From positions 1 to 23,198 of IMG/VR virus record IMGVR_UViG_3300043773_002549: 23,198 nucleotides of DNA. One strand, given 5' to 3'. Both the position numbers and the translations under genes were made by a program. Shown here piece by piece: positions 3,866-11,442 of the stretch (the first letter of the stretch is position 1; every line of letters starts with the position of its first letter). The stretch is from a virus. Under the pieces are notes generated by a model that saw only the letters and a program-made list of their open reading frames with translations, searched no databases and was not told the origin of the DNA.

Positions 3866-3978
3866 TGCGGGCAAGATTTTGGCGCGGGATTGAACGGCTT
3901 TTGTGCAGGGCCGGTTGTGCGCTGCTGGATGCTTCGGATTGGGCGCGCGGCCAAATGCGGAAGGCGCGGCGCGCATGA
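3865..3978 (+). CDS. Small basic ORF, 37 aa
   Basis: An ATG at 3865 overlaps the stop of the CII-like gene as TGATG, and the stop at 3976-3978 overlaps the gcrA start as ATGA. A purine-rich GGAGGAAAA (3851-3859) precedes it at good spacing. The product is strongly basic with an amphipathic helix (MRARFWRGIERLLCRAGCAL) and no acidic run. No family known. The coupling at both ends argues for translation; it may simply be a link that carries ribosomes into gcrA. Confidence 0.5.
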   Translation: MRARFWRGIERLLCRAGCALLDASDWARGQMRKARRA

Positions 3979-4598
3979 TGGGCGAAAAATGGCCCCAGGC
4001 AAAGGATGATCTGCTGCGCAGCCTTTGGCAGCGCGGGGATAGTAGTTCCCAAATTGGGCGGGCGATGGGTATTTCGAAAAACGCCGTGGTGGGCAGGGCG
4101 CATCGGTTGCGCCTGCCTGCGCGCGCTTCGCCGATCAAGGCGGGGCAGCGGCAGTATAGCGCGCCGCGCCATGGGGGTGTTGTGGTGCGGCGCGCGGCGG
4201 CGGGTGTTGTCATTCCTCCGGCGCCCGCCGCCAGAACAAGCTTGGGCGCCACAGGTGCCCCAAGGCCGGGCGCGGCGGCTTTTTCTGCGCAGCGAGACGT
4301 TTCCTTCCTGTCCAACTTCCCTGCGCTGGCGGCGCGCTTAACGAACCCGTCGCCAGCGCGGGGCTTTTTGGATGGGGCGGAGGTGAAGCGGGAAAAGGTG
4401 GCGGCGCAGCCCAGGCCGCAGGTGTTCCCGGTGCGGGGCTGTCAGTTTCCGCTATGGCCGCATGGGCCGCGTGTGGCGCTGGAAGATATGCGGTTCTGTG
4501 ATGCGCCCGCGCGGCGCAACAAGGAAGGCCGGCAGGATAGCGCGTATTGCCCAGCGCACCAGGCGCTGTGCTTCCAGAAGGTGAGGGAAGCGGCGTGA
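3975..4598 (+). CDS. gcrA: Phage-encoded GcrA-like cell cycle regulator
   Basis: GcrA is an alphaproteobacterial transcription factor that acts with sigma70 RNA polymerase at promoters carrying methylated GANTC sites. Residues about 6-55 match its N-terminal helix-turn-helix: WPQAKDDLLRSLWQRGDSSS, then QIGRAMGISKNAVVGRAHRL. The C-terminal 55 residues match the family's polymerase-binding end: CQFPLW, then MRFCDAPA and AYCPAHQALC (C156, C175, C192, H195). The middle is a long Ala/Pro/Arg-rich linker, so at 207 residues it is somewhat longer than typical host GcrA. Starts at 3975 or 3978 are both possible; 3975 forms the ATGA overlap. A phage copy could redirect host cell-cycle genes or drive phage promoters. 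Confidence 0.87.
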   Translation: MMGEKWPQAKDDLLRSLWQRGDSSSQIGRAMGISKNAVVGRAHRLRLPARASPIKAGQRQYSAPRHGGVVVRRAAAGVVIPPAPAARTSLGATGAPRPGAAAFSAQRDVSFLSNFPALAARLTNPSPARGFLDGAEVKREKVAAQPRPQVFPVRGCQFPLWPHGPRVALEDMRFCDAPARRNKEGRQDSAYCPAHQALCFQKVREAA

Positions 4599-4747: not shown

Positions 4748-5241
4748 GCGCCGCGTTAGCCTTGCCCGATCAGCGCCCGGTGCATGGTCTGGATACCGGC
4801 ATTTATGCGCCGCTGCCCAAGCGCGGCACGCAAGCGGGTGAGCGGATCGCGTTTGAATTTGCGGAAGAGCTTGCCTTGCATGATGCGGGGCATTTGGCGC
4901 GCGCGTTGGCGGCCATGGGGCTTACGCGCCGCATTATGACAGCGCCGCGTGCTGGTACGCCGCTTTGGTATGAAAGCCGCCTGCGCGGGCGGGGTTTGCG
5001 GGGTGCGGTGCTGGAATGGCCGGTGCTGCTGATGGCTACGCCGGAAGGGGTGGTGGATGCGCATCAAGTTTGGCTTTGCGTTGCATCGGGCGATTGGTTG
5101 ACCGCTTCCGGTGGTGCGCGCGGGCGCGGTGTTGTCTCCCTTGGGCAATTTGTCTGGGGTGTTTCGGAATATGAAGCGGCGCGCAGGCTGTGCCGCGCCA
5201 ATGGCTGGAAGGGGGTGCTTCGTGTCGGCGACCTTCGATGA
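4744..5241 (+). CDS. Hypothetical protein, 165 aa, early operon
   Basis: The start is a GTG at 4744 that overlaps the upstream stop as GTGA. The protein has a mixed alpha/beta pattern: a helical part (about residues 34-60, FEFAEELALHDAGHLARALA), then several strands (LRGAVLEWPVLLMATP, VWLCVASGDWL). The last 20 bases overlap the next gene. No motif for nuclease, primase or methylase could be seen. Its position just before the ATPase gene suggests a link with replication, but this rests on context alone. Confidence 0.72.
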   Translation: MSAALALPDQRPVHGLDTGIYAPLPKRGTQAGERIAFEFAEELALHDAGHLARALAAMGLTRRIMTAPRAGTPLWYESRLRGRGLRGAVLEWPVLLMATPEGVVDAHQVWLCVASGDWLTASGGARGRGVVSLGQFVWGVSEYEAARRLCRANGWKGVLRVGDLR

Positions 5242-7045
5242 TGGGTTTGACAAGGCGCTTGCGGATGCTTCCCGCCAGTTGAAAGTGGTGGAAGGCGGCA
5301 AGGGCAAGCGCCGGGGTGGGGGTGGTGATGCTCCGCCGCCCGAATCGCCCCCGCCTGAGGATTTGGATTGGTCCGCCGCGCCGGTCGAATGCCTGGGCGT
5401 GAATGGGGAGACGTGGTGGTTTGTGGATGCGTACCGGCAGATCATCGCCATCCAGGCGGGCAAGCTTTCCGCGCGCGGCGCGTTGAATGCGCTGCTGGGC
5501 GGTGATGCCACGGGTTGGGCCGCGCGCTACTTCCCGGAATTTGACAAGGAAGGGAAGAAAACCGGGGATTACAGCCCGCGCAAGCTGCATAAGGCGCTGG
5601 CGGAGCGCATGACGGAAGTGGGCTTGTTTGACCCTGCCACGCCGCGCCGCGGGCCTGGGGTTTGGCTGCATCAGGGCAAGCCCGTGGTGCATGCCGGCGC
5701 CAATGTTTTCTTTGCCGATGGGGCGCGCAAGCCAAGCTTCATTCGGGATGGCATTGCGTATATCGCGGCGCGCGCCATAGCGCAGCCGCATGATGGGCAG
5801 GATGGCCGGCCGGAAGCGGGCAGCGCCGCGCTGGCGGAAGAAGCCGAAGCGATGTTCCGCCAATGGAATTGGGAAAACGGCGCGTCAGATCGGATGCTGT
5901 TGGGCTGGTGGGTGATTGCCAATTTGGGCGCGCTGGCGCCGATGCGGCCCCTTGCGATGATTGATGGGCAGGAAGGCGCGGGGAAATCCACTCTGTTGGA
6001 AATTCTGGCAGCGCTTTGCCCGGCTGGTGAAATGACAAATGACACCACGGAAGCGGGCCTGCGCCAGCGCATGAATCAGCGCGCGGCGCCGATGATCCTG
6101 GATGAATTCGAAGGGGAAGAATTGCTGCGCGTGCTGGCCATGCTCCGGCGGATTGTGACCGGGGAAGGCAGCCGGTCCTTCCGTGGGCAGGGCAGCCAAA
6201 CCGCCGTGGTGACAGAAGTGGTGGGCACGGCGGTGATGGGCGCCATTGGCGCACCTGTCGCCAACAGTGCGGAAACCACGCGCATTCTGCGCCTGATGCT
6301 CTGGCCCCGCGCCCCCGGTGTGCCAAGCCTGGAAAAATCGGGCTTGCTATCCTGGTGCCAGAAGGAAGCGCCGGCTTTGTGGGGCCGCGCCATCGCCGCC
6401 TGGCCGCGCATCCACGCCAATGCGGCCATGATGCGTCTGGTGCTGAACCGCGCGGGCTGTTCGCCCCGATACGCGGATATGCTGGGCTGGCTCATCGGCG
6501 CGCGGGAAGCCATGGTGGCTGATCTGCCCTTGACGGAAGCGCAGGCGGAAGAAGCCTTGCAATGGGCTTGGGGTTGGGTGGTGACGGAAGCCGAACAGGC
6601 GGAAGACACCACGGCGGCGCGCTGCTTGCAGCATCTGATGTCATGCCCCGTGCTGACCGGTCCCGGCCATTCGGAAACCGTGGCGGTATTGGTGGAGCGC
6701 ACCTTGCGCGAACCTGATGCGCCGGCGGCGAAGCTATTGGCCGAGATAGGGCTGAGACTGGCCCCGTACCCCATAGATGGTGGGGATACGGCGCGGGTTG
6801 GGCTGTATGTGGCAGCCGGGCGAAGGCCATCGCTGGCCAGGCTGTATCAGCAAACGGAATGGCAGGGCGGGCGCTGGGGCACGGTGCTGGCGCAGCTCCG
6901 GGCCAGGGTGGCGGATGCTGAGATACGCGCGCAGCCGATCAAGACGCGCGTGCGGTTTTCTGGGGAGAATGACAGGGCTCAGGCAGTGTGGCTTGGGCCA
7001 GAATTACTGCCTTCGGGCGCGGCAAAGGGGTTCGGGATGGATTGA
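5222..7045 (+). CDS. Putative phage replication ATPase/helicase, 607 aa
   Basis: The GTG at 5222 is chosen because GGAAGGGGG precedes it at the right distance and the overlap with the previous gene is only 20 bases; an ATG at 5111 would overlap far more. A P-loop GQEGAGKST lies at residues 249-257 (Lys255), and a Walker B-like ILDEFE (Asp294) follows at about residue 292. A later segment TTRILRLMLWPR is like the arginine-containing segment after motif C in SF3/D5-type phage helicases. The N-terminal 200 residues contain Gly/Pro-rich linkers and no zinc finger that I can see. The gene ends 3 bases before the first copy of the origin-like repeat, which fits an initiator or helicase acting at an adjacent origin. 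The ATPase is certain from the motifs; the helicase role is an inference. Confidence 0.75.
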   Translation: MSATFDDGFDKALADASRQLKVVEGGKGKRRGGGGDAPPPESPPPEDLDWSAAPVECLGVNGETWWFVDAYRQIIAIQAGKLSARGALNALLGGDATGWAARYFPEFDKEGKKTGDYSPRKLHKALAERMTEVGLFDPATPRRGPGVWLHQGKPVVHAGANVFFADGARKPSFIRDGIAYIAARAIAQPHDGQDGRPEAGSAALAEEAEAMFRQWNWENGASDRMLLGWWVIANLGALAPMRPLAMIDGQEGAGKSTLLEILAALCPAGEMTNDTTEAGLRQRMNQRAAPMILDEFEGEELLRVLAMLRRIVTGEGSRSFRGQGSQTAVVTEVVGTAVMGAIGAPVANSAETTRILRLMLWPRAPGVPSLEKSGLLSWCQKEAPALWGRAIAAWPRIHANAAMMRLVLNRAGCSPRYADMLGWLIGAREAMVADLPLTEAQAEEALQWAWGWVVTEAEQAEDTTAARCLQHLMSCPVLTGPGHSETVAVLVERTLREPDAPAAKLLAEIGLRLAPYPIDGGDTARVGLYVAAGRRPSLARLYQQTEWQGGRWGTVLAQLRARVADAEIRAQPIKTRVRFSGENDRAQAVWLGPELLPSGAAKGFGMD

Positions 7046-7047
7046 AT

Positions 7048-7310
7048 TGTCCCGCCAAGTGTCCCGCTAAAGGTGTGATTTGTCCCGCTGGCGCGGGGTA
7101 AGTCCTTGAAAACACTGATAGCGGGACAGCGGGACAAGCGGGACAGGGCATTCCCTCATGTGTGCGCGTGTGTGCGTCGCGCGCATTTATGAAAACAGGT
7201 GTGTCCCGCATGTCCCGCATGTCCCGCTGAATAAAATAATAAATAATAACAGATAGATAGATAGATAGATAAGGGACAAAGGGCGGGACAGTTTTCGGGC
7301 GAGCGGGACA
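7048..7310. repeat. Iteron-like cluster, candidate replication origin
   Basis: Eleven exact copies of TGTCCCGC occur in this 290-base gap. Six are in the plus orientation (starts 7048, 7060, 7081, 7202, 7211, 7220) and five are inverted as GCGGGACA (starts 7121, 7129, 7138, 7283, 7303). They fall in four blocks: 3 forward, 3 inverted, 3 forward, 2 inverted. Within blocks the spacing is 8-12 bases apart from one 21-base and one 20-base step. The inner blocks (7121-7145 and 7202-7227) are inverted and could pair across 56 bases. An AT-rich tract lies beside the third block. Iterons next to an AT-rich tract, downstream of a replication ATPase, are the usual features of an origin; a binding array for a regulator is the alternative. 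Confidence 0.7.
7228..7272. repeat. AT-rich tract with GATA tetranucleotide repeat
   Basis: About 45 bases of very low GC (ATAAAATAATAAATAATAAC followed by five tandem GATA units at 7252-7271) in an otherwise GC-rich window. It sits between the third forward and second inverted repeat blocks and is the natural candidate for the duplex-opening region. Confidence 0.7.
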
Positions 7311-7333
7311 AATCGGGCGAAAGGGGTGGCGAA

Positions 7334-8056
7334 ATGGCGGATATCAGGAAGATGCAGGGGCTCTATGACGCGATTGGCGTTGTGCAGCCTGGGGTCTCAT
7401 GGGTGACCGGGGATGGCATGGCGCGGCGGGTGGTGGAAACGGCCCATGCCCGTGCAATGGCCGAAGAAGCGCGCGCGCTGGCTGCTCAGTGCCGTCCAGA
7501 CCCGATGTTCAGGCTTCCGGTGGATTATGACCCTGAAGCGGCTGTGCGGGCTGCGGAAGGGCTGGCGCGGCGGGTGGATCGGCAGCGCGTCATGCGGGCG
7601 GATAAGCTGGCGGGGCTCAGGGATGCGGGGCGGATCACGGCGGCAGAGCATCGGGCGGGGCAGGAAATCCGGCTGGTGGTGGAATATCTGGATGGCGGGC
7701 GCATGCCGATGGTGCGCAGCCAGTTCGCCGAACGCTTGGCCAGCGGGTCTGATGGCACGGGGGAGCTTCTGGGTATCGAGGAAGCGGAGCGTGAGCGCTT
7801 CGGCCCCTGGCGCGCCTGGGCAAGGCGGCATCCAGCGCGGCGGCTGCCTCGGCGGTCTGATGAAACGCTGGAAGACCTGACGCGCCTGGTGGTGGTAAAG
7901 GGCAGGGGCGTCCAACAAGTGGCAGATGCGCTGGCGATTGATAGGCGCAATGCCCTGGTTCGGCTGCGCCAAAGCCTGGGCTGGTATGCCGAAAGAGCTG
8001 GCTGGGCAGGTTGTGAAAATAGCCGCTTGACTTCCCACCCGGTTTCGGTGCTATGA
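7334..8056 (+). CDS. Putative phage regulator, 240 aa
   Basis: The ATG at 7334 has AAAGGGG at good distance. The N-terminal 110 residues are mostly helical, with several Arg-rich stretches. The segment ITAAEHRAGQEIRLVVEYLD (about residues 101-120) recalls small alphaproteobacterial phage proteins that precede the terminase genes. Residues about 180-222 (LEDLTRLVVVKGRGVQQVAD, then DRRNALVRLRQSLGWY) look like a sigma-region-4-style or simple helix-turn-helix: a 'gv.qvAdalaidrr.a..rLr.sL' pattern. It lies between the origin-like repeats and the late genes, which would suit a late transcription activator. Family not firmly recognised. Confidence 0.72.
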   Translation: MADIRKMQGLYDAIGVVQPGVSWVTGDGMARRVVETAHARAMAEEARALAAQCRPDPMFRLPVDYDPEAAVRAAEGLARRVDRQRVMRADKLAGLRDAGRITAAEHRAGQEIRLVVEYLDGGRMPMVRSQFAERLASGSDGTGELLGIEEAERERFGPWRAWARRHPARRLPRRSDETLEDLTRLVVVKGRGVQQVADALAIDRRNALVRLRQSLGWYAERAGWAGCENSRLTSHPVSVL

Positions 8057-10875: not shown

Positions 10876-11442
10876 ATGGCAACGCTGGATGCTCCGCCGC
10901 TCCGCGCGACGGCGGGCGATACATGGTCTTGGCGCTGGGCAAGCGCCGATTACCCGGCAAGCGCGGGTTGGGCCAATGCGTGGCGCCTGGTGGGGACCGG
11001 TGTTGCGCTTTCCGTCAGTGCTGTTGCGGAAAATGATGGGTTTGTTGCCACGGCTTCGGCAGTGGATACTGCAGCGCTTACCATCGGGGCGCGCGGCGTT
11101 CCGGTGACGTTGATTGGCTGGGTAAGCAAAGCCGGTGAACGCTTCCAGGTCTATAGCGGCGGGCTGTTCATCCTGCCCAATCCGGCCACCATCACGGGTG
11201 ACCTGCGCGGGCATGCCACGCGCACCCTGGCCGCGATTGAAGCCATGCTGGAAGGCAGCGCCAGCAAGGATCAGCGCAGCATCAAGATTGGTGATCGGGA
11301 AATCGCCCGCATCCCAATCCCCGAATTGCTGAGCCTGAAAGATTATTACGCCGGGGAAGCGCGCCGCGAAGCGGAAGCCGCCGCGCTGGCTTCTGGCCGC
11401 CCGCGCCGGCGGATTGTGCTGACACGCATGGGAAGGGCCTGA
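10876..11442 (+). CDS. gpW-like head-tail connector with N-terminal extension, 188 aa
   Basis: It occupies the position of lambda gpW, between terminase and portal. The C-terminal 85 residues resemble gpW: LAAIEAMLEGSASKDQRSIK, then IPIPELLSLKDYYAGEARRE and a basic end, i.e. a helix, a beta hairpin carrying the GDREIARIPI strand and a second helix. The N-terminal 100 residues (including GDTWSWRWASADYP and several strands) look like a separate beta domain not found in lambda gpW, which is 68 residues. Start ATG at 10876 with AAGGAAA. The fold match is by pattern and context only. Confidence 0.7.
   Translation: MATLDAPPLRATAGDTWSWRWASADYPASAGWANAWRLVGTGVALSVSAVAENDGFVATASAVDTAALTIGARGVPVTLIGWVSKAGERFQVYSGGLFILPNPATITGDLRGHATRTLAAIEAMLEGSASKDQRSIKIGDREIARIPIPELLSLKDYYAGEARREAEAAALASGRPRRRIVLTRMGRA

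Follow-up and report, generated by a model that had tools for sequence, protein, structure and literature searches.

A twelve-site array of short repeats behind an AAA+ helicase gene as a probable phage replication origin

In this work we have analysed a stretch of 23,198 bases from an IMG/VR virus record, referred to as the window, and we conclude that its positions 7048-7310 are very likely a phage replication origin which is directly bound by the helicase encoded immediately upstream. Judged by sequence comparison, the best reading is that of a SaPI/PICI-type origin, very probably one which operates in real phages and is read by the initiator helicase. By computation we found the array itself, its conserved position directly behind the helicase gene, its four blocks of three sites with an AT tract, and a covariation of the repeat word with C-terminal residues of the helicase. 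The features concerned are as follows.

5222-7045, plus strand: replicative (initiator) helicase of 607 residues, AAA+, D5-SaPI5-NrS-1-like (phrog_21086, structural model, Foldseek)
6644-7045, plus strand: C-terminal domain of the helicase, putative reader of the array (helices and a beta hairpin in the model; column covariation in relatives)
7048-7088, plus strand: block 1, three copies of TGTCCCGC starting at 7048, 7060 and 7081, wide spacing
7121-7145, minus strand: block 2, three inverted copies of TGTCCCGC starting at 7121, 7129 and 7138, tight spacing
7202-7227, plus strand: block 3, three copies of TGTCCCGC starting at 7202, 7211 and 7220, tight spacing
7228-7270, no strand: AT tract, 84% AT with GATA repeats, candidate unwinding element
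7271-7310, minus strand: block 4, a degenerate copy TGTCCCTT at 7271-7278 and TGTCCCGC at 7283 and 7303

The preliminary description of this DNA had reported eleven exact copies of an octamer in 7048-7310, and our recount agrees: TGTCCCGC occurs 12 times in the window, 11 times here and once on its own at 945. When the whole window was shuffled with its dinucleotides preserved, the mean was 1.24 copies and the maximum five against the actual 12, and a composition-based Poisson estimate puts the chance of 11 copies within 7048-7310 at about 1e-27, so the array is statistically certain. A scatter of the octamer throughout the genome, against which the same description had cautioned, was found neither in the window nor, for its own word, in phage 16-3. 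The reported alternation of the blocks also stands, whereas the count of 3/3/3/2 has to be amended, since the degenerate twelfth copy TGTCCCTT on the minus strand completes block 4 and gives a layout of 3/3/3/3 (>>> <<< >>> <<<). The start-to-start spacings within the blocks are 12,21 / 8,9 / 9,9 / 12,20, that is wide-tight-tight-wide, and blocks 2 and 3 pair as a 19-nt inverted repeat. Close relatives conserve the array and its orientation (+++---+++---). The P-loop ATPase gene noted directly before the array proved to be that of the 607-residue AAA+ helicase, whose stop codon (7043-7045) lies 3 nt upstream of the first repeat, and the AT-rich stretch noted beside the array could be located between blocks 3 and 4, where the AT content is 84% versus 43-50% in the other spacers.

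The longest open reading frame of the helicase gene begins at 5111. In PHROG the 607-residue protein matched phrog_21086 (7.8e-84) and, over its helicase part, phrog_35358, annotated as 'DNA primase' (1.5e-23). Searches of Pfam and of PDB sequences gave no match to families of the NrS-1, SaPI5 or D5 type, and the sole sequence-level match in the PDB was a designed-looking 'phosphate-loop protein'. The predicted structure (pLDDT 88, pTM 0.78) has as its best Foldseek matches the C-terminal region of NrS-1 (1.6e-7), the SaPI5 primase-helicase (8e-7), ASFV PrimPol, poxvirus D5/E5 and MCM; the TM-scores are 0.3-0.4, so the AAA+, D5/SaPI5-like placement holds at the level of the class. On this structural model, the protein appears to be an initiator of the AAA+/D5/SaPI-Rep class. 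In sister proteins, zinc-ribbon and Toprim primase domains precede the same helicase.

To the right of the array the window encodes terminase, portal, major head, tail and tape-measure proteins, and to the left of the helicase lie regulator genes (repressor-like, CII-like and GcrA-like). The structural genes together with the regulators mark the window as a phage or prophage, and with its genes for portal, major head protein, tail and tape measure it is a phage and not a satellite. The GcrA-like cell-cycle regulator (3903-4598; Pfam GcrA, 1.1e-13) points to an alphaproteobacterial host. A protein of 240 residues encoded downstream of the array (7334-8056) is kept in close relatives and had no match in Pfam, PHROG or NCBIfam; nothing found here singles it out as a protein that binds the array. 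The Rfam search for structured RNA also gave no match. The GC skew, a check suggested in the preliminary description, makes no turn at the array, which is uninformative as the window is a fragment, a partial contig.

Is the place of the array a peculiarity of this phage? We fetched loci by helicase sequence alone, with no selection for a motif, kept 132 representatives below 80% identity and sought words de novo. In 89 of the 132, the best 6-mer had at least six copies between 50 bases before and 350 bases after the helicase stop codon, in both orientations in 87. Control windows gave 4/132, 3/132 and 2/132 in the gene body, 2/119 upstream and 3/110 at +1000; a mixed-orientation array of short words thus marks the helicase 3' end in 66% of representatives versus about 2% of control windows. 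About one third of the relatives had no detected array, and in the wide family to which the window belongs (A6) it was found in 20 of 41, i.e. about half are without it. Among named phages, the word after the helicase stop codon is TGTCACG in Rhizobium phages 16-3 and RHph_X2_25, TGTACC in Idiomarinaceae phage 1N2-2, TGTTACC in Bdellovibrio phage phi1422 and TGTCCCG in the Dhillonvirus phages EP23 and TheodorHerzl of E. coli/Shigella; the region past the stop codon was without an array in Optimus, Trine, ZRG1, a Bordetella phage, Dolphis and Acjo_20. The place is constant and the word varies: lineages use TGTCCCG, TGTCACG, TGTTACG, CCTAACG and GTGTGA, among others, and on one strand many words are TGTNNCG or CCTNACG/TCTNACG, with some consensus frames uncertain as the words were called automatically. 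Three loci whose helicases are about 26% identical (L510, L519 and L521) combine a word of the GTGTGA type with the same layout of four blocks of three, and their AT content again peaks between blocks 3 and 4.

The preliminary description had proposed to look for the octamer elsewhere in the phage and in related phages; in Dhillonvirus, TGTCCC forms a second cluster. EP23 has 12 copies of TGTCCC in a second array among its tail genes (L557, 12057-12318) and TheodorHerzl has its counterpart (L558, record positions 11145-11394); in these genomes the second array occupies a gap ahead of the tape-measure gene. Part of this second array is a near copy of the one behind the helicase, suggesting a duplicated origin element. 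Given the second 12-copy array of EP23, the presence of an array does not necessarily point to one unique origin.

Could the array be a packaging signal, that is, a cosB-like site bound by terminase? Terminases of the lambda type use repeated binding sites, and in the window terS (8327) and a lambda gpA-type terL (8775) lie about 1 kb downstream. In complete genomes of other phages, however, the two part. In EP23 the terminase genes are at 56-2013 and the array is at 39.2 kb of 44.1 kb; in 16-3 terS is at 46 and the array at 56.2-56.6 kb of 60.2 kb. Even on circular maps a gap of about 3.6-4.8 kb separates array and terminase, so that neither phage has the adjacency to terS of a lambda-type cosB. 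Most arrays adjoin a helicase and no terminase, and the word follows helicase residues, as described below. Since distant phages keep the array with the helicase and not with the terminase, we reject a packaging site, to which we give very little chance.

Somewhat less improbable, yet still unlikely, is a regulatory role, in which the repeats would be operators, used by the helicase or another phage protein to control the late operon downstream or its own mRNA. Iterons frequently serve as operators as well, and the array is intergenic, between early and late genes. Against this, the genes downstream are wholly different between phages which have the array in common, the AT tract and twelve-site layout exceed what an operator needs, and no promoter or terminator consensus was found in 6900-7500, with the proviso that host promoters may differ.

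The reading as an origin bound by the helicase can also be approached from the word. A scan of viral contigs with TGTCCCGCNTGTCCCGC as the sole criterion returned 115 stretches. Dense arrays of mixed orientation were present in 47 of these 115 contigs versus 0 of 120 for the reversed word. Chance or GC-rich repeats were considered as a source and rejected: the reversed word gives many two-copy matches and one-direction repeats, but no mixed-orientation array. Dense TGTCCC arrays faced the 3' end of a helicase gene within 1.5 kb in 46 of 58 cases, the window included; 26 of these helicases belong to the family of the window helicase (c0) and 20 to a RepA/RecA-like AAA_25 family (c1), some members of which have a recognisable Prim-Pol or Toprim primase. 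When a stricter pattern was applied to bacterial and archaeal genomes, it picked out 20 stretches, among them some from alpha- and betaproteobacteria, Synergistaceae, Paenibacillus, Chloracidobacterium and Bacteroidota. About half of the 20 carry a c0- or c1-like helicase, in one case a weak match, and the remainder are short or truncated pieces. On a plasmid of Xanthobacter dioxanivorans (L293, 2569-2670) a TGTCCCG array directly follows a gene for a RepA-like AAA ATPase, and the array design is therefore not confined to phages. Three further contigs, two of about 95 kb and one of 38 kb, hold 58-68 copies of TGTCCC each, about 25-30 per 600 bp (L028, 9132-9708; L049, 1516-2095; L058, 7965-8554). 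Their arrays adjoin c34 and c9 genes with a weak FtsK/SpoIIIE-like match and no recognisable primase.

Indications that the helicase reads the word come from its C-terminal domain. Between helicases with TGTCCCG and those with TGTCACG, about 70% identical to p101 of 16-3, 22 of the 26 separating columns fall in the last 100 of 760. In the A3 family (15 proteins, three words), the excess of same-word pairs at matched core identity is 0.14-0.32 over the last approximately 110 columns and at most 0.06 elsewhere, and the final segment exceeds all 100 label permutations. One locus (L308) has a C-terminal domain like that of 16-3 with FQRA for FNRA in the recognition helix, and TGTCCCG for TGTCACG; FQRA pairs with TGTCCCG and FNRA with TGTCACG. 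In A5, a sister family within c0, the residue ahead of a conserved F-[KR]-G close to the C-terminus fits the word type in 58 of 58 proteins, the next best column in 50. The 38 proteins with GTTAC/GTCCC words all have R at this place, and the 20 with other words all have W, Y or H. With the words set out as YXTNNCG, an R accompanies X=G, a W or Y accompanies X=C, and an H occurs with X=A or C. An arginine-guanine pair is a classic base contact. A lysine two residues earlier accompanies a C as fifth base (TGTCCCG, and TGTTCCG at L411), and V, P, A or T accompanies an A. The counterpart of the word-tracking residue in the window is R578 (codon 6953-6955), which lies in V-R-F on a beta strand of the model.

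Related helicases are not independent, and the strictest test of the covariation is made on five pairs. In a tree built from columns 1-700 of A5, residue and word each change seven times, and all five well-supported independent pairs agree (sign test, p 0.06). In the wider A6 family the relation of residue and word is looser, and in A4 the covariation is not clean and adds little, as same-word pairs are mostly close relatives. We also considered whether the C-terminal residues are merely encoded by copies of the array; for the key columns this is excluded, as the A5 key codon overlaps an exact word copy in 0 of 58 cases, and five synonymous arginine codons are in use. Locus L353, compared with L325 and L333, has a similar C-terminus with GTCCC versus GTTAC and a different putative recognition helix, and forms a natural swap pair. 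From the covariation we infer that the C-terminal domain of the helicase binds the words of the array directly. The origin next to its initiator proposed in the preliminary description gains support from the arrays 3' of helicase genes and from this covariation.

More questions are raised by the identity of the word in unrelated helicases. TGTCCCG is used by both c0 and c1, in hosts of several phyla, and hhalign detected no homology between the C-terminal domains of the two families. Might the sites then serve a host protein or a third phage protein, for example one of partition or a host initiator, the helicase gene being a mere neighbour? The shared word speaks for this, but the 16-3-type family alone has TGTCCCG, TGTCACG, TGTCTGG and TGTATGG, changes of word track the C-terminal residues and not the remainder of the helicase, and no further common gene cluster was found beside the arrays. 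We regard such a protein as highly improbable in the place of the helicase. Both families may have converged on TGTCCCG as a favourable word, or the word may be shared on account of a second reader.

An origin bound by the adjacent helicase has close counterparts in satellites and mobile elements. In PICIs, the initiator gene is followed by an AT-rich region with a set of iterons on either side; ori function was tested for an E. coli PICI, and this organisation was described as unique to PICIs (PMC6092414). The alternating design of the window does differ from single-direction iterons, as first noted, but given these two flanking sets it is not without precedent. The likeness to SaPIbov1 Rep, SaPI5 and EcCICFT073 lies in a short-repeat origin, putative in the window, directly behind the gene of the initiator helicase and in blocks 3 and 4, which flank the 84% AT tract; the SaPI5 primase-helicase also ranks high among the fold matches for the window helicase. 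The window differs in having four sets of three sites in alternating orientation, blocks 1 and 2 being additional, and in its terminase, portal, head and tail genes, whereas a PICI is a satellite without most structural genes. SaPI Rep and Cch2 bind, by their C-terminal domain, iterons just 3' of their own gene, and for the D5-type self-loading helicase Cch2 of SCCmec the isolated C-terminal domain binds AAGTG iterons just downstream of the gene (PMC7581432). Cch2 has three direct iterons and another word, in contrast to the twelve sites in alternating blocks of the window.

Other systems are more distant. The core of the c1 family resembles RSF1010 RepA (1g8y, E 5.4e-12; 1nlf as top fold match). 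In RSF1010 a separate protein, RepC, binds the iterons, whereas in c1 the helicase itself carries the array-tracking residues, in a winged-helix-like C-terminal domain; the window helicase belongs to another superfamily than RepA. Lambda O, P4 alpha and classical plasmid iterons also have repeats that adjoin the initiator gene or lie inside it, together with an AT-rich melting region. These iterons are mostly single-direction and lambda O is not a helicase, unlike the alternating blocks and helicase initiator of the window. Nor does the window resemble the tandem plasmid iterons of about 17-22 bp, as its word has 8 bp, alternates, and is irregularly spaced by 8-21 bp within blocks. RepA_N of PLE was set aside as a counterpart, being an initiator of a different family. 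In the open literature, the matches listed for the octamer and its complement held nothing relevant, and phage helicase iterons were not found beyond the work on SaPI, PICI, SCC and PLE.

How might such an origin work? The C-terminal domain of the helicase would read each word of 7-8 bp as a monomer, and the twelve alternating sites would position the helicase as two hexamers with six sites each, a loading step drawn by analogy only. Melting would then set in at the AT tract that separates blocks 3 and 4, each ring would be loaded onto a single strand with no need of a separate loader, and replication would start with primase and polymerase. Words specific to a lineage would hold each helicase to its own origin. 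A bolder generalisation, which we offer as speculative and think rather unlikely in full, is that of a phage origin design spread over many phyla. The helicase would read a 7-bp YXTNNCG by a partly predictable code of residue to base, in which for example R would read the G of TGT and W or Y would substitute when that base is C, and the D5-like AAA+ and RepA/RecA-like superfamilies would have converged on TGTCCCG, perhaps via a second reader such as the primase.

The type of origin is itself known; what is new is the broad distribution of the arrays and the covariation of residue and base. An organisation called unique to PICIs probably extends to phages with structural genes and to two helicase superfamilies. 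The region just past the helicase stop codon may offer a sequence-only route to the origins of many uncultivated phages. The natural swap pairs (R versus W/Y, FQRA versus FNRA) make the putative helicase-origin code testable, including in Dhillonvirus of E. coli K-12.
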